Origin: Spinellus fusiger
Lineage: Eukaryota; Mucoromycota; Mucoromycetes; Mucorales; Phycomycetaceae
NCBI GenBank assembly: GCA_025094145.1
Contig: JALLLS010000036.1
Coordinates: forward strand, 248,001 to 312,000
DNA: 64,000 bases
Direction of reading: 5' to 3'
This document shows positions 2,662 to 64,000 of this stretch, in pieces. Each line of letters starts with the position of its first letter. Positions within the stretch are counted from its first letter, which is position 1. The translations under genes and the position numbers were made by a program. Under the pieces are notes generated by a model. That model had not been told where the DNA came from. It worked only from the letters and a program-made list of their open reading frames with translations, and searched no databases.

Positions 2662-4760
2662 ATGGGATTAGCTTATAGGATAACCAACAATGTTTATGTA
2701 AGTTCTATTTAACAAAACTTCTCATTGAGAAATTTGTTATTTACAATGTGTTATTAACTGTTATTCATAAATGTGTAGGTCATTGGTGCATTTGCCGCAC
2801 TTGCTGGTATTATGTTTGGGTTCGATATTGGATCTAGTTCTGTAAGTCATCTGAATAATATTTTGTTTTTAAGTAAAATTCGAAATAAGAATGCAGTGTA
2901 TCAATGCATATACTTATACATTTGTTTTGTTTTAGGGAATCATTGGAACACGACAGTACGCATATATTGTTTTAAATGTGCATAGATAACTCAATTATTT
3001 GCCTATAGATACCAAGAATATTTTGACAGACCAAGTGATCTGCTGCAGGGTGGCATCAATGGTGCTCTTAGTGCTGGATGTTTTTTTGGTGCTCTAATCT
3101 CTGGTTACCCCGCTGATCGTTTCTCTCGCAAATACACTTTAATTGGTGCATCTTTCATTTTCACCGTGGGTGCTGTTCTACAGGCTGCCTCCAATGGTGT
3201 TGCAATGCTTTGTGTTGGCCGTGCTTTAGCTGGTAAGTAGAGTTACATTTCGCTTTTAATCTTCACTTCCTATGAGCATCGAGACTCCAAGAATTCATAG
3301 GACTCATGCTTTTCTGATTTATCATAGGTCTTTCTGTTGGAATTACTTCCATGGTGGTCCCTATTTACCAGTCTGAGATTGCTCCCAAAGAAATTCGTGG
3401 TCGTATTGTTTCTATCCAGCAATGGAGCACTACATGGGGCATTGTGATATCGTAAGCTTTCATTCCATAATTGTGTTGATGTATCAAACAAATACTTAAT
3501 GCCGAATGTTGTATAATAAAACGCATATACAGATTCTGGATTCAATATGGATGTCAATTTATTGATAGTACGGCCGCTTTCCGTATTCCATGGGCTGTTC
3601 AGTCTTTTCCTGCTGTTCTTCTCATGTGTGGCATGTGGTTTTTCCCTTTCTCCCCTCGTTGGTTGGCAGGACATGGTCGTATGGATGAAGCTATAAAAGT
3701 TCTGGCTGATATTCATGGCGATGGTGATGTTGACCACCCACGTGTACAGCAGGTAATATATTCAGCTACAATAATAGAATCGAGCCCACCTTCCAATCTT
3801 TACTATTCATGACCCAGTATCTTATTATAATAATTATAGGAAATCAAAGAAATCAAGGCCGTCATCTACTTTGAGTGTGAGGTTGCTTCTCACCGCTACT
3901 CTGATCTGTTGCAGCCTGGAATCCTTTACCGTGTCTTCCTTGGTGTTTGTCTTCAGATTTGGCAGCAATTGACAGGCGTGGGCATTATCATGTTCTACGT
4001 TGTATTTCTCTTTCAGCAGGCCGGTATTGGAAGTAGTCAAGAGGCCGTCTTGGTATCTTCTGGTATCTCTTATGTTGTGAATGTCATCATGACAGTACCC
4101 GCTATCATCTATATTGATAAGTGGGGACGTCGTCCTACCATGATCATTGGTGCTCTTTCCATGTCTCTCTTCTTATGGGTGATAGGAGGTGTCTTGAGCA
4201 CAGGCAATTGGTATATTAGTCCCGGCACCGATAAATGGGTAGTGGATTTGAATAGCAAACCCAAGGCAGATCTTGTAGTTGCTTGTGTTTATCTATTTGT
4301 CGCCGCTTTTGCCACCACATGGGGTCCTTTAGGATGGATTTATCCTGCCGAAATTTACCCTCTTCGTGTCCGTGCAAATGCTGTTTCCTTGTCCACTGCC
4401 TCTAACTGGTTCTTTAACTGGCTTCTTAGTTTTATTGTTCCCCTGTTGATGCAGCGCCTTCGCTATGGACTTTACATGCTGTTTGCAACCTTTAACTTTT
4501 TGATGGCACTCCATATCTATTTTGCTTATCCTGAGACCAAAGGATTTACGGTAAGACCTTCTTTATTCTCTCTCTTATTTTATTTATTAATGCTAATTAC
4601 AACAACAACAAAACAATAGCTTGAAGAAATCGAGATTGTATTCAAACACAACCCTCGCAAGAAGATCGACCGTGCTATGGTAGAAAGAGAAGCAGCTCAG
4701 TTGTATGGTAGCAGCATCCCCGACAGCCTTGATAAAGGACTGGAAAAAGTTCCTGCTTAA
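2662..4760 (+). CDS. MFS sugar (hexose) transporter, seven exons
   Basis: This gene encodes a plasma-membrane sugar porter of the major facilitator superfamily, probably importing monosaccharides by proton symport. The ATG at 2662 opens a 12-codon exon. Six short GT-AG introns follow (donors near 2698, 2841, 2965, 3232, 3452, 3753 and 4551 with in-frame joins). The product is about 520 residues, as usual for the family. Seen motifs: GFDIGSSSGIIGT in TM1, an RALAGLSVG...PIYQSEIAPKEIRGR stretch after TM4, SPRWL, WQQLTGVGIIMFY in TM7, DKWGRR between TM8 and TM9, and PETKGFTLEEIE after TM12. The TM7 motif has V-G where hexose transporters usually have I-N, so substrate cannot be assigned. A Fanzor-carrying transposon begins only 72 bp after the stop. 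The frame is intact throughout. Confidence 0.9.
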
Positions 4761-5545
4761 AAGTCAGAAAGATACCTTTATTTTTTCGTTTATCGCCTCT
4801 TTTATTCCCTTTGTCCTTGCCTTTCTCTTATCCTACACACCAGGAGACTTTGCTGGCCTTTAAGCGGTGATGTATTCATTTTACGTAAAAGGAATACATC
4901 ACCTTTTATGGAACTGTGTTCAAAATCAACAGGTTTGCAGATATCCAAATAATTATTTCCTTTTGTGGATACCTCTATCAAATTGTATTATCAATGGAAT
5001 ATAGTGTTTATAAATAAAATTGTTTATTATAATAATATAGCTAATAATATAATATACTATAGCTACTGCTGTTCTAAGCGTATTCCCTCATAGCAATAGA
5101 ATCCACAACCTAAAATCCTTGTGCTTTATCCTTGAGATATAAATAAATATGCTCAGGAGTATAACTTAGAGACTTTAGATAGTATAGAAGACTACCTGGT
5201 ACTAACTTGAAAAGAGTCTTTACTTGCCTAATAACAATACAATGAGTGTCTTGTGGAATACATTGAACTCAATCCCAGAGAAAGACATTGCTTACCTTTT
5301 CATCTCTAAAACAGTCTTTGATGGTGTCTATCACCTATTGTTTCTCTTTGTTATTAATGGCACATTACCTTGCTCAGTTATGCTCATATTGACGAGTACT
5401 TGGGTGTTAAGTTGTATGTGCAGTGTGGGAAATAACAAAAGGAGGGGATTATCAAAACAAATAATATTTCTCTCTTTATACTGGTGGGGTATACACTATA
5501 GCCTTCACTCATAAAATTCACAAGTCAAACAATTCACACTCTATT

Positions 5546-6762
5546 TGCCTTGGACCTAAAAAACAGTATTATAAATAATACTTTGTTATCATTAAGTACT
5601 ATTGTTGATAACAGTTACAATGAGTTAGTTGAGGTGACTATTAATATTGAGTCAATGAATGGCTTTTATGTTCTTAATATAAGTGAGTTTGGTTCTATTT
5701 TATGGACAATGACCACCAGAGTTAATTCAGTATGTCCTATAATAGATCTCTCTCAAGCAGTGTTATGCTACAGATACTGTGGGCTTATGGATAGCACATT
5801 ATGTTAAACAATAGATACAGTGATTGAGTTGTAATGTCAGGTCTACTTCTTCCTTTTATCCGACTTATAGTGTTCAATTACACAGTCCATAGTCAATGCT
5901 AAAACAGACAGATAGTGAGAAGAATCTTTTCAAACACATTAGCCAACCAAAGAAATATTGACTTTATTGTTCATAAATTTGTCTAATTTGCTGTTCTCAA
6001 GCAATAGCTATGGTTTTTATAGAACATCCAAGCAGACTGGGAAGGGTAACTGTTCTGTTCTATAGTGTGTATAATCTTGGTCATGTATTTCAAGGCCATA
6101 GAATTCAATAAAGTGATTTTATTGTAAATAAAGTTTCTCTCTTCCCTTGAAACATACATAGGACAAGAAAAGGAAATCCATCTCTAAATTTACTGAGATG
6201 TTATTATCGTATAGCTTTGATCCTTATAGCTTAAAGAGATATATATAAAAGCAGCCTCAAGATCTATACTATGTAAATTTGTAAAATATATCCTTTATTC
6301 TGTAATAAAGGGCAGTAAGGTTATCAACAGGACCACTAGAGAGATGAATCTGTAGTTGTTTGGTCTCTAGCAGGGACAACGAAATGGAGTATTGGATACA
6401 AAGGCTAGTCTAGGGAAATCAAAGAGGGTACATGAACAGGAACACAACACACAATTTGATCACAACGGGTAACTAGGCAACTGTTCTTTAAGCAATTCTT
6501 TTTCTTTCTAAAATGTTGTTGTAGTCTGCATTACTTTGGTGGTTCTGATTAAGCAAATGACTTGTGAAGTTTCGTTTTGTTCTCTTCTGCTTTATAAATA
6601 CCTGACAACCACACTGACTGTTGTTCTTCAAATCTTCTACCCTCTTTCTTTTGTTTGCCTTTGTCTGGAATATAAACCAACAGTTGTGATCTGGTGAGTG
6701 TATGTGTGTGTTTATTATGTCTGACATGTTAGTCAGTTTCTATTGTATATTCTTTTATTTTA
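5546..6762. other. Internal part of copy 1 without a recognised gene
   Basis: This part lies between the shared left end and the Fanzor relic. An 85-codon open frame at 5550-5807 has no recognisable domain, and most of it is absent from copy 2. A 79-codon minus-strand frame at 6488-6727 rich in Lys, Asn and Cys is present identically in copy 2 at 13768-14007. It may be chance, since the whole block is duplicated. The Fanzor N-terminal domain would be expected here but I cannot recognise it. Confidence 0.4.
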
Positions 6763-7434
6763 ATAAACCCAGTGAATCCGTTAAAAAGGCAAAGGCAAGA
6801 AGGTGCCAGTGCAAGGGTAATACGACATACACATAGAGTACATTAATACATCTCAAACTAACTATTTTTACTGTTCTATTATTGAAAAGGGATATTGGCA
6901 CCTAGAAAGATTGGAGTATAATCCTACCAAACTGCCTGTAATTGCTTATGGCACAGGAATAAAGATAAAAGATGCTGCCAAGTTTAAAGGTCATTGTGTT
7001 GGTTTGATGAGAGTTTTATATCAATCATTGAAAAAGAGACAAAAAGATGGTGATCTTCTTCTGGTTGATGTCGATGAGTTCCGAACATCGAGAGTAAACA
7101 TGGTTGACCTCTCACCCAATATGAAAAGCTCTTCTAATAGTTATTTTGTTTTATTTTTGTTCTCAAGATCTTCCACACTTATAACATAAATAACCTCACC
7201 GAGGTATTAGTAGATTTCAACAATATCCATGCTTGCCAAAGTTGTGGAGTTGTTTAGAAAAGAGATGTGAATGCATCAAAGAATGTCTATACAATTGCAG
7301 AAGAGTGTTTAAGTGGTCGCCACCTACTAGCTCCATTCTGTCGAGAAGCATGGATATTTGTATTCATATTATATGTCGCCACATCGAAAGTGGTTTCCTC
7401 CGGGATTCAGATATCTACAGGTAAATCTACATAG
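6763..7434 (+). pseudogene. Fanzor-type (eukaryotic TnpB) RNA-guided nuclease relic, C-terminal part
   Basis: Fanzor proteins are eukaryotic relatives of TnpB, with a split RuvC nuclease domain and a zinc finger. Seen here: a short Lys/Arg-rich exon (6763-6817), an intron with GTAATA donor and AAAG acceptor near 6890, then GYWHLERLEYNP, KFKGHCVGLMRVLYQSLKKR and LLLVDVDEFRTSRV, the usual lead into the zinc finger. After a disrupted stretch comes HACQSCGVV, a TAG stop at 7255-7257 where the family has Trp, then KRDVNASKNVYTIAEE, which holds the RuvC-III aspartate, and CLSGRHLLAPFCREAW. The frame runs to a stop at 7434. The first zinc-finger cysteine pair is not readable and the nonsense codon breaks the gene, so it should be inactive. 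Confidence 0.72.
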
Positions 7435-7561
7435 TTTTTATTTGTTTAAAAACTAACATGAGTACATAATTTATTTTTGCTCCTCAAATCGACTTGTCAT
7501 TTCTTAAACAATTGTAGTTCGACTATTTCTTTTTATATCCTAAAGATCACTTAGTGTGTAG

Positions 7562-8223
7562 ACATATTCTCCAGTTATTCACTTTAACTTCCATTACCTC
7601 TTATATACCTGTAATTGTTTTCCCTTATGTAGATGTGTTATTTTTTTTGTTAGCAGGTGTTGTTTTCTATGTATTTTTATTTATTAAAAAAATGAATACA
7701 TAAAAAACTGGTATGTACTGTTTATTCAATGACAAATATTTAACTTTTTCTAACTAAGTAATAGTGCAAATCAGTTTTATTAATACATAAGAAATATTGT
7801 TAATTGCGAGAACTCTCTTTTATTACACAGAAATATACTATAAGTGTATTATTGTTATTTTAATTATATATCTTACTTGTTTAATAAAAGATTATTTATT
7901 TCATCTGTATGTTTATTATTTCTAATACACAGGACATGGTCTATAGCTATTCTTCCATGCTGTATGCAAACTACATGGTAGCTGTTTAATTGGAAATTGC
8001 ACTATGCTATAGCTTTTTTAATACCATAATGATTGCTATTTTTTTAGTGAAGATAATAAACACATTAAAAACAAGGAGTTGCACTTATTTACTCTCACGG
8101 CACTTTGGATAGCTCTATATTATCTATTGAAAAGATTAAATTCCTTTTTATTTTCTTCTACATGACACAATGCACGCTCAAGAAACAAAACAAACACAAA
8201 CACACAATGGAGTCAATGGAGAC
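7562..8223. other. AT-rich spacer, no gene seen
   Basis: This sequence lies between the copy 1 element and the tail of the minus-strand pepsin-fold gene. It is AT-rich with long A and T runs and stops in all frames. I see no gene, tRNA or structured repeat. The 3' untranslated region of the minus-strand gene must lie in the last part. Confidence 0.5.
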
Positions 8224-9875
8224 TTAATGGGATTTTCTATAAACTCTCAAACCATCTTCCTTGTGACCCTTTCTCAGTGCCAGACCAATGCGTTCACCCT
8301 CAGGATCAAATGTAACATAAAATGCATTTGTAAAAGCGGTACCAAGCACCCAATCACGATCTGAATTACCATGGCTGATGCGTGTTGTACAGTAGCCACA
8401 ACACTCTTTGGATTGATCCAGTCGTTTGATCCAATACTTTGATGGCAATTCAACAATGTGATTTTCAAGTGTTAATTTAAGTGTAGGCAGTTTTTCAGCC
8501 TCACAGCACACAAATCGATAGTTCTTTTCTGCTGCATTGTACCGACCACCAAAAGTAGCATGGAATTGATCCGCTAAACAATGAAAAGAAAAAGAAGCAC
8601 ATGAGCAAAGAGTTTTTTTTTCCTTTTTTTCCTATGCTTGAGAAAGAAGCAAGTGATTTACCTTGTTTAGGAGGCATTACAATCATACTATTTGCTGTGC
8701 TAATGGAAGCAATGGCATTGGGAAGTTGTTTCATGTTTAATTCTCCATCAAAATTAGCATCTCGAATACAAACATCCCAGTTCTTGGCACTATGGTCCTC
8801 TGTGTTGGCCAATGGGATATACTCAATAGGGCCTTGGATAGCACTTTCATCAACACCCCCTTTAGAAAGAAATAAAGAATAAAGAATAAGTATACCTTAT
8901 CCAATACAAAGCACTCTTCTCTCTCTCTCTTTTTTTTTTAAAAAATAAATAAATAAATAAATAAAACTTACCAAGAACAAGATAGCCTGCAACTTGTTCT
9001 TGCTGGGGAGTAGCACTGGCACGCACAACAGCATTTCCACCATGACGCTTTGTAAATCCATAGCCACCCGATACAACCTCATTGTCTTCATGCACATCAA
9101 GGGATGGATCCAATCCTTCTGCAGGTTGATCTTCATGCAATGCCTCACCCATGGACGCTGGTGCTTCTCTTTCTTTGTCGTCGTCGTCTTCTTCTTCCAT
9201 GGACACAGCCCCTGATTCTGAAAACCCATCGTCGCTTGTAGATGTAACATACATGCCAAACTGTGCACTCTGAACCCCACTGCCTTGCTGATATGCATTA
9301 GCAACAAACGCAGAGTCAGGAAGTGACACTCCACGCTTAGAAAGACTACGTGAGGAGGTGGTACGGAGCTTGGTGGTGTTAAAATCCACCGACCGTCCAA
9401 GGCCAAGGTACCCATCGAATCCAGGATCAAATCCATGCATACGGTACGCACCACCAAAAGGCATAGAGGGCACAGTGAGGTTGGCAAATTGAAACGTATC
9501 AAGGTACACATGGGTATCGACACAGCTGCTGCCGTAGTCCACTGAGAATTTCTGGCCTGTAGGCACCACTGTGGAAGAGCGTCGGGCATAATAGGTGCAT
9601 CGGTTCAGACAATTATCAGAGGTACATCGGTACCCACGGACCCAGGAATAGCCCGTGGTGGTGTCAAAGGCTACAGTGAATTCTTGTGGAGGAGTGCCAA
9701 TGTAGAGTTTGCCTGCAAGAACACCGCTGTCAAGAGAACGGCCTGCGACCTGGACAATGCCATTTTGAGGATTAAAAGTACGACGGTATAAAGGGATCTT
9801 GTAATGTTCCGAGTGAGCAGTAACAGACACTAATAAGGGGAAAAGAACGACAAGGTATAATTTGGGAATATGCAT
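8224..9875 (-). CDS. Pepsin-like (A1 family) aspartic protease homologue, probably catalytically dead
   Basis: The gene encodes a secreted pepsin-fold protein of three exons (9875-8972, 8859-8662, 8573-8224), joined in frame by GT-AG introns. A hydrophobic signal peptide covers residues 1-20, ending near VTAHS. The A1 landmarks follow: LYIGTPPQEFTVAFD, a Cys-rich loop, FDGYLGLGRS and, across the first intron, YLVLGGVDES. The first active-site motif reads DTTTG instead of DTGS. The second, expected as DTGT/S, reads ISTANSMIVMP, so the second catalytic aspartate is Ser. The fold looks kept but proteolysis is unlikely. An acidic insertion with a run of Glu and Asp lies near residues 225-260. Its role is unknown; inhibitors and binding proteins with this fold exist. 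The upstream region has a CT-rich stretch and a TATATATATA run near 9992-10002. Confidence 0.85.
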
Positions 9876-12065
9876 AATGAATAGGACAAATTCAAGAGTT
9901 GAAAAAAAAAAGAGTGATTGCAGGTAGAAGTGAGGGAGAAGAAGAAAAAGGAATTGGAATTGCGAAAGTGTTGACTACTAAGCAATAGTTTGATATATAT
10001 ATAAAGGAATGTAAATTGGAGCAATCTTCTTGACGTCCTTGAGTCTAAGCTGCACTACTTCTTTGAATACCAACTGAAGAAGAAGAAAGAGTCCTATATA
10101 AAAGAAAGAAGATGAATAAGAGAAAGGAGGGCAAAGGGGTGAGAATGAAGATTAAAAACGAGACAAGAGCAGCCAACAAGCAATCAAAAAAAAAAAAGGG
10201 AGGAGCCTTAAAAAAGGGGGAGAGAAGAGGTCTCCAACCAATAAGATGAAGAGCCTCTTTAGATGTGAGAAGTCTATTTGTCACGGTTCTGTTTCTATTT
10301 GTTAATTGTGCCATGCCACAGATGCCTGTTTTGATCTTTAGTGTGGACTGGAATATTATGACATGGTGTGTGTTGTTATGTAGGATGATGGCATTCTATA
10401 TTCCGGGGGGAATTGAGTAGAAATGAAGGATATCCACTCTTTCTTTGCGTTTGGTGTTCTACCACCGACAATGACCATTCACTCCCATGCTACGGTCTAT
10501 TCTATTAATGATGGCGGTCATGCTACTGATACTACACACTAGAAATAACAATAAAATGCACGGGAATAAACACAGTCAATGAGTAATACTAAGTGGCTAT
10601 CGATCGAGTCCTGAGTTCCCTTGTGTAGATACACATTGGCAAGCCTTAATAGAGATCAGAGATGATAGTGATAATGATATAGAATATCATTCTATTTTAT
10701 CATTCATTACCACCGTAATTACTTTATTGTCCTTTGCTCTTCATCCATGCAAAAAGAAAAAGGAGACTGCTACTAATAACGCCAGTCTAATGTCCAAAGT
10801 AATAAGCATCATTTTCCTTATTTATCAAAAGACAGGGCCTTTGTATTCTTTGGCTTTTCTACTCGGGCACACCAGTACTAACATTACTATTCTGCAAATA
10901 AGGAATAGAGATCATTTGTGGGATAGAACCTATCTTTCGGATCTTGATCATGGTAATACTGCTGCCACAATAATGATACTGATGATACTGATACTGATGA
11001 TACTGATGATGATCTATCAATTCAGTAATAAATAATACCTGTCTATGAATAACAAGAATAACAAGAATATTCTATTCATTGCAAGTGTTTCTCTATAAAA
11101 GAGAGTTTTCTTGTGTTCTTTCCTTAACCTACTACTCATAAGAATGACCAAACAAAGCAGTCGTAGGAATGAGTGTAGAGTCAAACCCCAATGTTACTGG
11201 TCACAAAGGCATTGGCATTGGATTTCTCTTCAAGACACTACAGTGGCAGAGACAGAGGAGTCTTCCTATTCATATTTCATGGAGTGATGTTCATTAGAAT
11301 GACAGCAGCAGTGGTTGGATGGAGTAGCGTACGAATGAAGCAAGTTTCCTTTGATAGTATAAATGCATTATGGATTACATAAAGTAACCCATCCACACTC
11401 CCTTTCTTTCTTATAGCTTGTCTAGTTCTATTTCTTAATTTTCACTCTTAGTCTGTAGTTCATATAGTGACAGGCTGCAGATCTTATTGATAATGCCCTT
11501 GATTTATTCAGGAACATATAAATACTGGCAACATCATTAATAACAATACAACTATTGATATTACTATTATTACTTAAATTGCCAATTATGTTTTCTCTCG
11601 ATTCATAAGCGATGGAATTCTTATTTCTCTTTGGGATACATTGGCTTGCGTTTATTAATGACTCGAAAGTAACACAATAGAGTAGATTGATAAAGAGTAT
11701 ATCGTCTCTTTCTATTCTCGATGGCAGTGCAATATCAATGTATATTTCATCATGTTTTCTCATGTATCCCTATTCCACACACACACACACACATGTTATT
11801 GTTAAGTATTAAGTATTATTAGTATTAAGTATTATTAGTATTGGTATATTTTTATGGATTGGATTTCAATGATAACATGATCATAATAAAGGGAAAATGG
11901 AATTAAATGGAAATACACCACTAATGTTATTTACTAATAAATAGAGAAATAGTAAAGTATGTCTTGTTGGAGACTCTAAACAGGTTCAATAACAGCACTA
12001 TTGATTTATTTGAAGTGTTTACTTATTCCGCTCTACTCAGTTGTCTACTAAAGAAGTGTCTATTT
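9876..12065. other. Intergenic region with short repeats, no gene supported
   Basis: I see no gene with recognisable coding features in these 2.2 kb. The first few hundred bases must hold the promoter of the minus-strand pepsin-fold gene. Simple repeats are present: ATACTG-type repeats at about 10974-11010, a CA run near 11778-11792 and AGTATT repeats at about 11805-11845. A 111-codon minus-strand frame at 11428-11763 has no domain and I do not call it. Confidence 0.5.
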
Positions 12066-12188
12066 CTACACACCAGGAGATTTTTCTGGCTTTTAGGCGG
12101 GGATATCTTCTTCCTTTTATGGAACTGTATTTAAAATAAAAGGTTTGAGGATATCCAAATAATTGTTTCTTTTTGTGGATACCTCAAT

Positions 12189-12444
12189 ATCAAATTGTAT
12201 TTCTCATCCACGAAAACGAAGACATGTCATAGTCTAGAATATTTTTACCTTTATGTCCTTTTCTCTCATTTTTCTTCCTTTTAGCTAGTTCTGTTTTCTT
12301 TCTTATTCTTTTTTTCTCTAATTTTCTGCAAGTGATTTGTGTCCAATATGTTTTCCCAGTCAGACCTCTCAGTGCGACGTGTGACTGCGTAAAAGACGCT
12401 TAATAAAAAAGTGTCTTATACAAAAAAAAAAATCAAATTGTATT
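12189..12444 (+). mobile_element. SINE-like or retroposed RNA insertion with target duplication
   Basis: The 13-bp sequence ATCAAATTGTATT occurs at 12189-12201 and again at 12432-12444, flanking about 230 bp that are missing from copies 1 and 3 at the same place. The insert ends in a run of 11 A. This is the mark of LINE-style target-primed retroposition. The insert is T-rich in its first half. Near the end it contains AAGACGCTT and AAGTGTCTT separated by 7-8 bases, which could form a hairpin in RNA. I do not see clear A and B boxes, so origin from a tRNA is not supported. The source RNA is unknown. Confidence 0.72.
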
Positions 12445-14042
12445 ATCAATAGAATATATTGTTTATGAATAAAATTATTGATGGATAAAATTGTTTATTG
12501 TAATAATATAGCTAGTAATACTGTAGCTAATAATAATATAGCTAATAATACTGTAGCTAATAACATACTATTACTATAGCCATTGCTGTTCTAGGTGTAT
12601 TCCTTCATAGCAATAGAATCCACAACCTAAAAGCTTTGTGCTTTATCCTTGGGAGATAGATAACTATGCTTAGGAGTATACCCTAGACACCTTAGACACC
12701 TTAGACAGTATAGAAGGAAGAAGACCACCTTGGACTGACTTAAGAAAGAGTCTTTACTTATCTAATAACAGAAGAGTGTATTAGTAATAATTCAATCAAG
12801 AGAGATAATATGTTTACCTTGTACTTAATACTTGTCTTTAGAATAATGAGTCATGTATCATCTATTAGAAGAAAAGTCAGTACTATGCCTTGTGGATTAC
12901 ATTGAACTCAAGCCCAGATGATGGCATTATTTACCTTTTTATCACTAGAATAGCCTTTGGTAGTGTCTATCACCTCCTTCTATTGTTTCTCTTTGTTAAT
13001 AATGACACATTACCTTGCTCAGCTATGCTCATCTTGACGAGTACTTGAGTGTTATACTGTAGGCTTATGGATAGCACATTATGTTAAACAATAGATACAG
13101 TGATTGAGTTGTAATGTCAGGTCTACTTCTTCCTTTTATCCGACTTATAGTGTTCAATTACACAGTCCATAGTCAATGCTAAAACAGACAGATAGTGAGA
13201 AGAATCTTTTCAAACACATTAGCCAACCAAAGAAATATTGACTTTATTGTTCATAAATTTGTCTAATTTGCTGTTCTCAAGCAATAGCTATGGTTTTTAT
13301 AGAACATCCAAGCAGACTGGGAAGGGTAACTGTTCTGTTCTATAGTGTGTATAATCTTGGTCATGTATTTCAAGGCCATAGAATTCAATAAAGTGATTTT
13401 ATTGTAAATAAAGTTTCTCTCTTCCCTTGAAACATACATAGGACAAGAAAAGGAAATCCATCTCTAAATTTACTGAGATGTTATTATCGTATAGCTTTGA
13501 TCCTTATAGCTTAAAGAGATATATATAAAAGCAGCCTCAAGATCTATACTATGTAAATTTGTAAAATATATCCTTTATTCTGTAATAAAGGGCAGTAAGG
13601 TTATCAACAGGACCACTAGAGAGATGAATCTGTAGTTGTTTGGTCTCTAGCAGGGACAACGAAATGGAGTATTGGATACAAAGGCTAGTCTAGGGAAATC
13701 AAAGAGGGTACATGAACAGGAACACAACACACAATTTGATCACAACGGGTAACTAGGCAACTGTTCTTTAAGCAATTCTTTTTCTTTCTAAAATGTTGTT
13801 GTAGTCTGCATTACTTTGGTGGTTCTGATTAAGCAAATGACTTGTGAAGTTTCGTTTTGTTCTCTTCTGCTTTATAAATACCTGACAACCACACTGACTG
13901 TTGTTCTTCAAATCTTCTACCCTCTTTCTTTTGTTTGCCTTTGTCTGGAATATAAACCAACAGTTGTGATCTGGTGAGTGTATGTGTGTGTTTATTATGT
14001 CTGACATGTTAGTCAGTTTCTATTGTATATTCTTTTATTTTA

Positions 14043-14714
14043 ATAAACCCAGTGAATCCGTTAAAAAGGCAAAGGCAAGAAGGTGCCAGTGCAAGGGTAA
14101 TACGACATACACATAGAGTACATTAATACATCTCAAACTAACTATTTTTACTGTTCTATTATTGAAAAGGGATATTGGCACCTAGAAAGATTGGAGTATA
14201 ATCCTACCAAACTGCCTGTAATTGCTTATGGCACAGGAATAAAGATAAAAGATGCTGCCAAGTTTAAAGGTCATTGTGTTGGTTTGATGAGAGTTTTATA
14301 TCAATCATTGAAAAAGAGACAAAAAGATGGTGATCTTCTTCTGGTTGATGTCGATGAGTTCCGAACATCGAGAGTAAACATGGTTGACCTCTCACCCAAT
14401 ATGAAAAGCTCTTCTAATAGTTATTTTGTTTTATTTTTGTTCTCAAGATCTTCCACACTTATAACATAAATAACCTCACCGAGGTATTAGTAGATTTCAA
14501 CAATATCCATGCTTGCCAAAGTTGTGGAGTTGTTTAGAAAAGAGATGTGAATGCATCAAAGAATGTCTATACAATTGCAGAAGAGTGTTTAAGTGGTCGC
14601 CACCTACTAGCTCCATTCTGTCGAGAAGCATGGATATTTGTATTCATATTATATGTCGCCACATCGAAAGTGGTTTCCTCCGGGATTCAGATATCTACAG
14701 GTAAATCTACATAG
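14043..14714 (+). pseudogene. Fanzor-type nuclease relic in copy 2, identical to the one in copy 1
   Basis: This relic is shifted by exactly 7280 bp from the one in copy 1 and appears identical to it. It shows the same DEFRTSRV lead, the same CQSCG half zinc finger, the same TAG stop replacing Trp (14535-14537) and the same RDVNASKN RuvC-III motif. Because the inactivating stop is shared, the gene was already dead when the block was copied or converted. In active Fanzor loci the guide RNA comes from the sequence around and after the 3' end of the gene, so the 14715-14841 stretch up to the right end is where a relic guide RNA would lie; I cannot show one. Confidence 0.72.
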
Positions 14715-14841
14715 TTTTTATTTGTTTAAAAACTAACATGAGTACATAATTTATTTTTGCTCCTCAAATCGACTTGTCATTTCTTAAACAATTGTAGTTC
14801 GACTATTTCTTTTTATATCCTAAAGATCTCCTGGTGTGTAG

Positions 14842-15222
14842 TTATATAATCCCATAAGACTATTCTCTTGCCCACACTGAATTCCTATTCCGACCCACAC
14901 ATAATATTGATCCTGGAGAGACAGAGAAAAAAGTAAGTCCCATGGATGGGACTGTGAGAGTGAGCCACGCCCCACCCAACCCGTACACTTACGACTGCTC
15001 CTTTACATTTCTTACTGGCAGCTTTTTTTTTTTTTTTAATTCTTCTACTCATTGTCACATGTCAAGCATTACTCAGGGTCAGAATTCTCTATTCTATACA
15101 ACATGAGCCTAGAGTGTTTATTATAGAAGACTCACTCGTTCTCTCTCCCTCTTTGCCTCTCCCTCTTTGCCTCTCCCTCTCTCTCTCTCTCCCTCCCTCT
15201 CTCTCTCTTTATCCATGGACAG
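14842..15222. other. Spacer before AOS1, with a CT-rich tract
   Basis: This spacer lies between the copy 2 element and the first clear AOS1 exon. A (CT)n-rich tract covers about 15137-15208 and runs into the splice acceptor of that exon, so it probably works as an unusually long polypyrimidine tract. The first AOS1 exon with the start codon should be here, but I could not find an ATG exon that joins in frame. The ATG at 15102 gives the wrong phase with its nearest GT donor. Confidence 0.5.
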
Positions 15223-55244: not shown

Positions 55245-56813
55245 TGAAAGAGAGGAGGTGTATGCGAGCCTAAAGGTTATAATATAGCAGAGAAGGAAAG
55301 AATAAACAAATAAAACAAGGTGTTGCTATTGACTAAAATCTGAGTCACATCTCGAGCTGCCAAAGTATGTCTGTGCTTTTTATTATTCTGTCTTTTATGC
55401 TTACACAGCTATATAACCAAGATACAATTAAGATACAAATGCACATGTGTACATTCTTACAGTAGACTGTGCATAGTAAAGAACACTGAAAAAGACAATA
55501 GAGAGAGAAATAGAGAGAAATAAAGAGAGAGAAATAGAGAGAAATAAAGAGAGAGAAATAGAGAGAAATAAAGAGAGAGAAATAAAGAGAGAGAAATAAA
55601 GAGAGAGAAAAGAGAGATACTTATGGACAATATATTATTTTATATCTTTCAGTGTTAATTACTATTAACACACCAAGACATATTGGTAGCTGAGTATATG
55701 CTTTTTACTTATATGTTTATTACAACAGAATAAAGACGCTTTATATTTAATATAGCATAGCATAGCATAATATAACATAATATAATATAGCATAATATAG
55801 CATAATATAATATAGCATAATATAATATAGCATAATATAATATAGCATAATATAATATAGCATAATATAACACAACATAATATAACATAATACAATCCAA
55901 CATAATATAACATAACACAATATAACATAGCATAACACAATATAACACAACATAACATAATCTAACATAACATAATAATAGACACCAACAACACTGTACT
56001 CCCCTTGTGATTCAGCTGAAAAGACTGATAAGAAGCCTATTGTCTATCTCTCTTTTTATTACTCTATATCTTCCATGCCTTCGATTTAAACTTCTATAAG
56101 AGAATGATACTATTGGCTTAGTTTATTATGCTAATGTCCACTGATAGAGAAGGCCTCATGGGTTCTTTTGTAGGGGGAAATTGGATCATCGTGGGGCCCT
56201 ATTGTTTCCAGCACACTGCCATTTTAGTGACCGGGAGTAGATAATCAGTGCCCTATAGAGATATCAAACTGTCATTGGAACCTTTGATAAATATGCCATT
56301 TTAGTCTAGAGTCTAGAGTCGGGAAGGACCAACCTTCTTGTGTGTATCAATACATATATGGTATGCCTTGGTAGGCCTTGGTACTCTTTTTTACCCCCCC
56401 CCACACACACATACACAAGGGATGGGCTTATTGATAAAGAATAACATCCAATCGTCTGTGCCTGTGTTTATGTTTGTATGAAATTCAACTCAAATCCTAG
56501 CTAGTGTCTTATTATGAACATCCTCTGATAAACACTCCTGCATTCTTTCCAAGCAAACTGTATGCACAGAATAGAAAATGAATAGGCTAAGCACGGAAGA
56601 GAGCTGTGTGCGTGTGTTTGTGTGTACTTGTATCAAAGATAAGCACTCTTCATCACATGCAAATTCAAAATCTTAATAGAAGAAAGGCACTATAGATGAA
56701 AAGAGGATCATGTTTAAATAGATAGAGCACTGATAATAGTACAATTGTCTTTATTGATATTTGCCTATAGATTTATCTTTTCATCTTCTTCTTTCTCTCT
56801 TGTTTTATTCCTC
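55245..56813. other. Spacer with long simple tandem repeats
   Basis: This gene-free spacer separates the divergent REX3-like and MIT-domain genes. It has a block of GAGAGAAATA/AGAGAGAAATAAA repeats at about 55497-55613 and a CATAATATAA/TATAG type repeat at about 55752-55975. Open frames seen opposite the second block are Leu/Tyr/Cys low-complexity artefacts. The right end must carry the promoter of the MIT-domain gene. Confidence 0.6.
55752..55975. repeat. AT-rich tandem repeat based on CATAATATAA
   Basis: About 220 bp are built from units of five (CATAA, TATAA, TATAG), most often arranged as the 15-bp unit TATAGCATAATATAA. Units drift towards CACAA and CATAG at the right. The strands differ strongly in composition: almost no G on the plus strand. 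Confidence 0.8.
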
Positions 56814-61141: not shown

Positions 61142-64000
61142 CTACACACCAGGAGAATTTTCTGGCCTTTAAGCGATGATATCTTCGCTTTTTAAAACTG
61201 AAAATATTTTGCCCTTTTATGGAACTGTGTTTAAAAAGAAAGGTTTGCGGATATCAAAAATAACATTTCCTTTTGTGAAATATCTCAATATCAAATTGTA
61301 CTATCAATAAAAATATTGTTTATAAACAAAATTGTTAATGGATAAAACTGTTTATTATAATAATATAGCTAATAATACTGTAGCTAATAATATACTATTA
61401 CTATAGCTACTGCTGTTCTAGGTATATTCCTTCATAGCAATAGAATCTATACCCTAAAAGTCTTATGCTTTAATATTGGAAGATAGATAACTATGCTCAG
61501 GAGTATACCCTAGACAGCCTAGACCGTATAGAAGGAAGAAGACCACCTAAGACTGACTTGAGAAGAGACTTGACCTATCTAATAACAGAAGAGTGTATTA
61601 GTGATAGTTCAATCAAGAGAGATAGTATGCTTACCTTGTATTTAATACTTGTCTTGAGAATAATAAGCCATGTTTTATCTATTAGAAGAGTCAGTACTAT
61701 GTCTTGTATATTGCAATGAGCTCAGACCCAGATGATGACACTGCTTACCTTTTATCTCAAAAATAGCTTTTGGTAATGTCTATCACCTCCTTCTATTGTT
61801 TTTCTTTGTTAATAACCACACATTACCTTGCTTATTTATGCTCATCTTGACGAGTAATTAAGTATCAAATATTATGGGCAGTGTGAAAAACAACAAAAGA
61901 ATAACAGACAAAAGAATAAGAAAATATTTTGATTTTGGTGACGTATCACTTTAGCCTCCACTTTCCAATAATTTATTAAGTCAAAACTCATAAGTCAAAC
62001 AGCTCACTCTCTTTCCAATTTTTATTTCGAAATCTTTCTTAACATGTCTTTCACTACCATCAGATTCAAGAAGAATGAAATTCCCACCTGCACTGTCTGC
62101 CAAAAAACATTTAAGACCAAGGGAAATCTGAAATCACACTCTTCTATTCACAACATGTAAGGATAATCTCAAAGAGTCATGTTGCTCATTCTCTACCATG
62201 AATAGTTCCATGGCCGAATCTTCTTATAGTTATCTATCATAGAAATAGAGGCATAGAATAATAAGAACCAAACTCATCATGCTTTATTGCTATTGTTCAC
62301 AGACCTCTCCCCGCCATCACCACAGTCTTCCGTGTAGAAGAGGAAGGTGATGATGACCAGGAGTTTGTTGTTGAAGATGAGGAAGTTCTTGAAGAAGAAC
62401 CTCTTTGGGTTACCAGGGAAGATGATTTCGACAGCAGCAACAACACCTTTGAGGAGGCTGCCTCTGTAGATGATATCTTCCCATTCTCGACAAGGCTGGA
62501 GATGATCATGCATCGTTTCTTTACTGAAAATGAGGAACGTATCTCGAGAAGATTTGCAGGGGAGATCATCACCTTGTGCAAAGATGTAAGAGAGGCTTGT
62601 CTTGCCAATCTTCAGGAGAAAGTTCCTGCTTTAAACAGGGTTCTTAACCTCGAGAAGAGGGTGAGAAGCCATGTCCCCAAGTTCCCCACCACCACCCATA
62701 ATGTTACAGTGGCTGAAACCTGCAAAGGCTTGCCCACCACCACCACCATCCACCAGCTCTCTATGAACAAGCCTTCTGAGCATTTGAGGCTCCTCACCGC
62801 CAACCCCCTCAAGACAAAGATGCTCTCTGCCCTGTCAGACAGAACTCCAAATCAACGAGTTTCTGTTACTCAGGGAGAGAAATGGAGAACCCACCCCCTC
62901 TTTCAACACCCCATGGTGACTGTCACCATCAATGGTACTTCTGTTGATCTCTGGGTTGGAGATTTAGTGTGCGTCTCTCCTAGTGGAACAACAGCAACAG
63001 CAACAACCTACAAGCTTGCCTCTTTCTTCACTTTATGTGATAGACTGATGGCTGAGGCTTACGAAGAGGCAACTGGTTTCTCTCTTGGCAGCACTGTAAT
63101 ACTAGATATTGTAAAAGATATCCAACTTCCTTCTCACTCCCACACCAACTCTACCACCCACCATCCTCTCAAGAAATCCGCCATCAATTCCAACAGACAG
63201 TTCATGCCAGTCAAGGTTGTGCCTATGAACTTGTTTTCGGACGACACAAGTGGCAATACCACGAAAAAGTGGAACAAGTTTGAGAGTTGGGTGCTGTCCC
63301 CCGCTGCTATGCCCTTCAAAGAGCAGAATAGGGTTGAGAACATGTTCTTTCTCTGCACCAGTAACAAGCTTTCAGCAGTTGAAATGCTTCCTGACATTGT
63401 AAAAGACCTCAAGGCGTTGGAGAGAGGCATGGTGATGTTTGATGTGGAGTTTGGAGTCTGTTTTTGTTGTTGGTGTACTTCACCTCATCATGGCAGACAA
63501 TCCCATGCATGCGGCGATTGTATGTAGTCTTAGTCCCAAGGCTAGGCTCCCGTGTAGAAAGTGTTTATGGAGAAACGAAGGTGAAAGAGCAGTAGTGGAT
63601 GGTGCCCCTGCAAGAAGAAGAGAGGAGTTGGTAGAGATTTGCCGACATTGTGAAAACAACCCTAACAACGCCAGCCTAAGAAGTGACCCCAGCACTGGCT
63701 TCAAGCTAACTGGTGGTGAAGCACTTTTATCTCTTGAGTCGTGGGATCCCTACAAGGATTGCCCTGTGGAGAGACTCCACACTATCCTCCTCGGTGTCGC
63801 CAAGAGTCTTGTGATTGGCATGGTGCCGTTCTTCACCGAGAAAGAAACCAGGCACTTGGAAGAAAGCTTCTTCCAGTACAGTTCAAGAGCTTTCACAAGA
63901 AAGCACCGTACTCCTTTCCGCCGTTGTGGCTCTTATCTCGGAAGAGACTTTAAAATAATTGTGCAGCAAATGCCTATTATTTTGAATCTCTTGATCCAAA
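61142..64000 (+). mobile_element. Plavaka-like (CMC superfamily) DNA transposon, left part, cut by window end
   Basis: The left end CTACACACCAGGAGAA at 61142 equals the terminal repeat of the two Fanzor-carrying elements. The 0.9-kb non-coding lead (61142-62043) is similar over its length to 4833-5545 and 12066-13050, with many point differences. The coding part begins at 62044. The right end is outside the window, so length and target duplication cannot be judged. Confidence 0.8.
62044..64000 (+). pseudogene. Plavaka-like transposase with N-terminal C2H2 zinc finger, one frameshift, incomplete
   Basis: The ATG at 62044 starts MSFTTIRFKKNEIPTCTVC, completing a C2H2 finger (CxxC...HxxxxH). 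A GT-AG intron (62158-62299) joins in frame to an acidic stretch and the long exon with IMHRFFTENEERISRRFAG. Then come the Plavaka signature NLFSDDTSGNTTKKWNKFES, NMFFLCTSNKLSAVEMLPDI and, in another frame, FVVGVLHLIMADNPMHAAI and RLPCRKCLW. At about 63450 the frame shifts by +1, with DVEFG in one frame and VFVVG in the next. The second frame stays open from there to the window end (CPVERLHTILLGVAKSLV, FFTEKETRHLEESF). A single shift in an otherwise clean gene could be recent decay or a sequence error. Confidence 0.78.

Follow-up and report, generated by a model that had tools for sequence, protein, structure and literature searches.

Truncated Fanzor1 genes in a probable CMC-like family of non-autonomous transposons in Spinellus fusiger

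How does the end of a Fanzor gene come to lie between the terminal repeats of transposons whose ends are shared with a transposase-bearing element, and can such transposons still provide a nuclease? This question is raised by two elements in a 64,000-nucleotide stretch (the window, C128:248001-312000) of the genome of Spinellus fusiger (Mucorales, Phycomycetaceae), designated E1 (4834..7560, + strand) and E2 (12067..14840, + strand), and by a transposase-bearing relative, PL, which begins at 61143 of the same window. A sequence-only reading had proposed that a Fanzor replaced the transposase in a Plavaka-type frame and that the elements thereby carried a nuclease. This interpretation is partly supported by the analysis reported here. 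With a probability of roughly 80%, E1 and E2 are dead members of a large non-autonomous family of CMC-like (CMCT) cut-and-paste elements which insert at TA and carry a Fanzor1 tail. Genome-wide counts refer to the contigs of the S. fusiger assembly (38.1 Mb, 197 contigs), from which 65 loci were fetched for comparison; 19 elements were aligned in detail and 44 copies contained all three exons of the tail. One step used 39 of 47 references.

Both elements are bounded by 14-base terminal repeats with TA at both ends. The left repeat, TACACACCAGGAGA, is exact in E1 (4834..4847, + strand) and E2 (12067..12080, + strand), in each case with a C before it. The right repeat of E2 (14827..14840, - strand) is the exact inverse of TACACACCAGGAGA, and that of E1 (7547..7560, - strand) differs from it at three positions. 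The two elements and their common repeat were present as the sequence-only reading had described them; the span 4833-14841, however, is not one 10-kb unit, as E1 and E2 are separated by unrelated sequence in which the minus strand is open over 370 codons.

The right part of both elements contains the end of a Fanzor1 gene, namely its last ~145 codons with the end of the RuvC fold, the zinc ribbon, the RD motif and the stop, after which ~200 bases remain before the right end. The ribbon is interrupted in the unspliced frames; removal of the GT..AG introns yields exon B (6775..6816 in E1, 14055..14096 in E2), exon C (6890..7093, ending with DEFRTSR, and 14170..14373) and exon D with the zinc ribbon and RDVNAS (7168..7357 and 14448..14637), all on the + strand, the E1 set being the E2 set minus 7280 bases. 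Among the 44 copies, the first intron showed GT in 40 and AG in 38, the second GT in 39 and AG in all 44. The length of exon B is a multiple of three in 40/44 copies, with five different lengths, that of exon C in only 24/44. Twelve of the 44 copies were open through the ribbon according to the script's test; eight of them were used for the protein reading, and L043, which belongs to the four not used, has a shift in exon D. The sequence of open copies is ...DEFRTSRICHTCNT...ACQSCGIVWNRDVNASKN...GRHRPVPFCREE, then a stop, with variations. The copy alignment omitted loci L001-L008, L025 and L039 (repeats of longer loci, or without a Fanzor tail) and extended partial copies by coordinate, so that rows such as L017, L035, L021, L022, L024 and L037 carry unrelated left sequence.

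All eight spliced open copies scanned, which come from elsewhere in the genome, matched PF07282 (best E 4.9e-13) and contained the cysteine pairs and RDVNAS, individual cysteines being absent from some of them; L033, a genomic copy in unspliced form, also matched (E 5.5e-7). The Fanzor C-terminal region, its motifs read directly from the DNA, is thus real, although the profile recognises it in spliced open copies and not in the unspliced 122-amino-acid open reading frames (ORFs) of the window, relative to which the ribbon lies past an intron: these gave no Pfam match, and a search of the PDB with one of them gave a chance match only (E 1.4). In E1 and E2 both cysteines of the first pair are lost and a TAG stands in exon D before RDVNAS. 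Comparison of the tail with TnpB/Cas12-type chains gave weak matches (E 0.0014 and up). A read-through query (P0001, region 321-500) yielded 294 candidates with none at E 0.001; the spliced profile worked instead. Ahead of exon B, a TATA box, a run of pyrimidines and a GT..AG segment resembling an intron were observed at 6590-6775, without a match in the full-length Fanzor locus on C13 described below.

As regards the nuclease which these copies were supposed to carry, none of three Fanzor queries matched an N-terminal half with RuvC-I (and RuvC-II) upstream of exon B in any of the 19 aligned elements, where Fanzor matches start at, or just before, exon B. As this half is missing in all 19, E1, E2 and the other aligned elements cannot encode the nuclease.

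The comparison with PL revealed the arrangement of the parts. E1 begins with a left region (4835..5441, + strand) homologous to the left 0.76 kb of PL (blastn, PL 1-391 and 557-756), followed by remnants of the transposase C-terminus (5535..5693, + strand; tblastn 48% over 54 amino acids, E 2e-8) and of the transposase 3' region (5669..5835, + strand; PL 3732-3898, blastn 84%). In E2, the region 12530..13050 (+ strand) matches PL 214-720 at 86%. The shared left-region blocks, which the sequence-only reading had also noted, amounted to 75-77% identity in E1 and 85-90% in E2. Across the family, pieces of the left 0.76 kb precede the transposase C-terminus, where kept, and a transposase 3' stretch which extends to about PL 3898; ~1-1.3 kb of other sequence, the Fanzor tail and the right end then follow. 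The transposase C-terminus was retained, as judged by tblastn, in 13 of the 19 aligned elements, E1 among them and E2 not. In several copies, the transposase element's inner right end is present as well, either as PL 4012-4102 or as the corresponding part of C13. As the Fanzor lies behind the transposase and a second right end is present, it did not take the transposase's place, contrary to the proposed replacement.

An insertion of ~230 bases was observed in E2 (12189-12444, insert 12202-12432), with a poly-A end and flanked by the 13-base direct repeat ATCAAATTGTATT. It resembles a short interspersed nuclear element (SINE) or a retroposed RNA, and a second copy with 86% identity over 199 bases lies at L034:2632-2823. 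An Rfam scan of 4800-14900 gave two weak irrelevant matches below the gathering scores and none at this insertion.

Chance nesting, in which the Fanzor and the terminal repeat became joined by accident in two loci and were later duplicated, had been named beforehand as the finding that would overturn the association. A tract of 1,767 bases common to E1 and E2 (5782..7548, + strand, and 13062..14828, + strand) without a single difference fits such a duplication, and because of this tract the two elements alone are not independent. The genome, however, argues otherwise. The ribbon exon word AGAGATGTGAATGCATC occurs 299 times exactly (control 0), and in 125 of these cases the exact 12 bases TCCTGGTGTGTA follow at a distance of 252-282 bases, compared with 0 in the control and 0.0004 expected by chance. 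This linkage at fixed spacing excludes a joining by chance nesting, and the longest matches elsewhere in the genome are only 84-91% identical to the window; we therefore regard this explanation as already refuted, with next to no probability left to it. The 14-base repeat itself was found 842 times exactly, against 0 for the reversed pattern and 0.19 expected. With the right end of C13 as DNA query, 39 other places matched up to the last or last but one base of the query (among the best 40 of 578 candidates), the family right-end sequence being TCTCCTGGTGTGTA. Non-autonomous elements with Fanzor sequence and ends shared with the transposase element thus exist in hundreds of copies, as had been suggested.

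PL (61143..64000, + strand) has an exact left repeat and runs past the window to ~65258; its right end, ATCCCAAAAATCTTTGGGTGTGTA, was read at L039:4736-4759. An open stretch with a C2H2 zinc finger (61972..62157, + strand; PF00096, E 1.7e-5) is the probable N-terminus of the transposase. It is followed by an ORF with the first acidic motif, DDTSGN (62265..63527, + strand), and by a second, overlapping ORF with DNP and CRKC (63436..64000, + strand), with HLLSH beyond the window. The order DDTSGN, DNP, CRKC, HLLSH places C(2)C and H(3-4)H between the second D and the last E, the arrangement that marks CMCT transposases; a catalytic role of these motifs is assigned by motif order only. Neither a Pfam scan of the three PL stretches nor a PDB search with the C-terminal ORF returned a transposase profile or a solved structure.

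The ends of the family read CACACC..GGTGTG with TA outside in 22/22 left and 49/50 right ends in the fetched sequence. According to the available part of PMC12730594, the CMCT clade comprises CACTA, Mirage, Chapaev, Transib, Plavaka and ESTA, with CA..TG termini and duplications of 2-5 bp; TA duplications are described there for ESTA, and ends of the types TGT..ACA or CATCA..TGATG for Plavaka. The Plavaka label of the sequence-only reading was rejected, as PF18759 did not match the three PL stretches scanned at E values up to 1 and the ends differ from both Plavaka types. A search of the genome with the Plavaka profile gave 0 matches, which says little because the control gave no match either. 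By its CA..TG ends, its TA (as in ESTA) and its C(2)C and H(3)H transposase motifs, the family including PL fits into the wider CMC-like (CMCT) clade. It differs from the CMCT transposons described in the available part of that source by its Fanzor, which is not mentioned there, and from Plavaka by its ends. At least 91 transposase matches were found in the genome (best 87 of 771 candidates scored), many of them without stops, which makes a source of transposase in trans plausible.

Where, then, are full-length Fanzor genes? P0002, a Fanzor fragment annotated for S. fusiger, matches C13 in three pieces with 91-96% identity; by eye, the differences lie at the ends of the pieces. Both sequences contain CGVDLGRK (RuvC-I) upstream of the exons of the tail. 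The C13 pieces match P0023 of Mucor flavus across the query (E 5.5e-46), which in turn matches the solved Fanzor of Spizellomyces, SpuFz1 (8gkh), over residues 486-572 (E 2.2e-6); through P0023 the C13 gene is thus homologous to a characterised Fanzor. On C13, a ghost element of 1.06 kb, with both repeats exact and the transposase C-terminus inside, precedes the full-length Fanzor, behind which a family right end with one mismatch follows.

A search for further full-length copies had been advised in the sequence-only reading. The N-terminal exon of C13 yielded 20 matches from 25 candidates, of which eight were strong (E <=6e-21; C13, C119, C183, C179, C164, C127, C121 and, partial, C116) and the others weaker pieces; C13, the sole full-length locus read, has broken frames. 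The further loci of interest are C183:103611-105145, C127 from 160216, C179 from 79950 and C119 from 229864 upward, and C164 from 166998 and C121 from 193183 downward. N-terminal matches among the 65 fetched loci were restricted to L062 and L063, which both cover the C13 gene. A genome search with P0002 gave at least 206 matches (best 150 of 991 candidates scored); six rows among the matches listed represent its upstream part (C13 twice, C164, C179, C127 and C46), and the other listed rows are exon C. Considering these few N-terminal places against 206 P0002 matches that are mostly exon C among those listed, tail-only copies far outnumber full-length ones. None of the other full-length loci was among the best 40 of the 578 right-end candidates scored. 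The bacterial TnpB profile NF040570 was discarded for this purpose: its matches (best 106 of 239 candidates scored) were limited to profile positions 348-386 and therefore cannot show a full-length Fanzor. On C29, a transposase match (3681-5150, + strand) and a Fanzor exon C (5995-6255, + strand) are separated by 845 bases; in a by-eye comparison of incomplete lists, this was the lone candidate for an element in which transposase and Fanzor occur together.

The copies exchange sequence. Mean r2 between variants in the 44 copies decayed from 0.129 at distances below 10 bases to 0.026 above 400 bases, and 0 of 1000 permutations were as low; the near-duplicates W1, L009, L012, L015, L022 and L024 had been dropped from this linkage analysis. 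Outside the identical 1,767-base tract, the left parts of E1 and E2, which lie 7.3 kb apart, are 84-94% identical in blocks and the right repeats differ; the tract itself is apparently a recent gene conversion between the two.

From this layout the origin of the family may be sketched as follows. A complete Fanzor gene with a second right end behind it, the arrangement seen at C13, would have been placed downstream of a transposase element. The N-terminus of the Fanzor and the greater part of the transposase would then have been lost by internal deletion. The resulting short elements may have been mobilised in trans by transposases like that at 61143, reaching ~300 copies, which would also swap sequence by gene conversion. 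The transposase probably carries these copies along as passengers, and their Fanzor remnant probably has no function as a protein.

Several observations weigh against this account. No empty insertion site was found, so that TA is presumed to be a target duplication and not to belong to the repeat. The transposase of PL at 61143 is itself split over two overlapping frames, and the only full-length locus read has a broken frame. Past coding constraint on the tail is weak but present: synonymous to non-synonymous changes amounted to 56:105 in shared variants as compared with 33:121 in singletons (Fisher p 0.009; W1 left out of the variant counts), so that the tail may at times have been more than a passenger. 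Tails derived from genes on which selection once acted should show weak constraint of this kind. Finally, the base before TA is C in 19/22 left ends, compared with 16/49 right ends read outward (fetched sequence; Fisher 2.9e-5). A symmetric transposase does not account for this asymmetry, since equal treatment of the ends should give equal figures. A genome-wide left-end search gave 430 places at <=1 mismatch, at least 100 of them without mismatch among the matches listed, from which the fraction with C is not derivable.

The left-flank C, which is the strongest hint for a role of the Fanzor, resembles the motif recognised by a Fanzor next to its own element. Fanzor target-adjacent motifs (TAMs) tested include CATA, TTAA and ATN, the last being that of PpFz1. 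In Spizellomyces, a conserved CA precedes the left repeat of Fanzor elements and Fanzor-less ghosts alike, as far as the available part of PMC10432273 goes. The tail copies could accordingly be working ghosts, their 3' ends serving as guide RNA for a full-length Fanzor in trans which cuts empty donor sites beside CTA and so keeps the elements. A candidate guide-RNA region is the conserved non-coding stretch between the Fanzor stop and the right repeat (14638..14826 in E2, + strand), which was delimited by shared-variant density: shared variants per site were as few there (0.265 in 14640-14820) as in exon D (0.277), with 0.709 upstream (13900-14040). Fanzor N-terminal sequence at several loci and gene conversion between copies would also suit this explanation. 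On the other hand, singletons in the 3' stretch are not fewer (0.486 per site vs 0.378 in exon D), transposases need subterminal bases too, and PL and the C13 ghost, both without Fanzor, have the same C, just as the ghosts of Spizellomyces have CA. The last ~150 bases folded no better than shuffles in 4/4 copies (z -0.38, -1.19, -0.29 and -0.03), and only 3/40 predicted pairs of the consensus fold showed two-sided changes; a structured guide RNA was rejected on these grounds. The low shared variation may reflect subterminal transposon sequence or a guide RNA, and a role of the right end as guide RNA is possible but not proven. The one full-length locus read has no intact Fanzor either, and we consider working ghosts doubtful. 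The fuller proposal, that a few full-length loci supply the enzyme and ~300 truncated copies the guide RNAs, while the left CTA marks emptied donors which are cut and refilled to maintain the CMC-like family, seems improbable.

The TATAAAT and the GT..AG segment ahead of exon B suggest another possibility, namely that the tail forms a new gene of small size, with a promoter and first intron of its own, encoding a zinc-ribbon protein without nuclease. The length of exon B, kept in multiples of three despite its variation, and the mild coding constraint agree with a new gene. Splicing at GTGAGT, however, leaves an in-frame TGA just 5' of exon B in E1 and E2 and no ATG before exon C; the frame of exon C is preserved in little more than half of the copies, and the ribbon is open in about a quarter. 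A new gene is very unlikely for these reasons, and dead copies of a non-autonomous CMC-like family remain our preferred explanation. Elsewhere in the window, long tandem stretches of GAGAAATA and ATAATATAGC occupy 55480-55990.

Comparison with known Fanzor systems refers to the available parts of the sources cited. Spu-1 of Spizellomyces punctatus, with 42 Fanzor loci (19 full-length) and 134 Fanzor-less ghosts (PMC10432273), resembles the Spinellus family in having fewer Fanzor loci than ghosts with related ends in one genome and conserved bases upstream of the left repeat. Its ghosts, however, lack a Fanzor ORF and keep a tested guide RNA, whereas ~300 Spinellus copies keep the Fanzor tail and their RNA is a candidate only; moreover, no transposase was found between Spu-1 repeats, whereas Spinellus has a transposase family with related ends (PMC10432273). 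The MuDr-type Fanzor1 elements of Rhizopus, Phycomyces and Mucor likewise possess the ends of another transposon and no transposase, but with MuDR ends and 9-bp duplications instead of CACACC..GGTGTG and TA (PMC3627910). MCi-2 of Mucor circinelloides shares with the present family variable left parts joined to a common Fanzor right part, and a partial transposase in one subfamily; it differs by its 11 copies, no recognisable inverted repeats, duplications of 11-12 bp and a Crypton-type transposase (PMC3627910). The transposon types associated with Fanzor also include hAT and Crypton (PMC10711439). No report of a Fanzor in a CMC-like element was found in the literature searched, including the available parts of PMC3627910, PMC10432273 and PMC10711439; PMC10711439 contains none of the terms CMC, CACTA, EnSpm and Plavaka, and PMC3627910 none of the terms CACTA, EnSpm and Plavaka. 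Priority for the association of Fanzor with CMC elements is not claimed. The 2023 survey by Jiang et al. may already place CMC among the Fanzor-associated types.

Fanzors travel in a wide range of transposon types, and the reason for this may be approached in S. fusiger, whose genome offers a natural series consisting of a transposase element, ghosts, ~300 tail copies and a few N-terminal loci, with ends shared where these were read; it can therefore be asked directly in one genome whether a DDE cut-and-paste element persists with the help of RNA-guided cutting. A concrete predicted recognition site is provided by the motif at the left flank. If the family were indeed kept by a Fanzor acting in trans, its tail copies would be RNA genes rather than dead protein genes.

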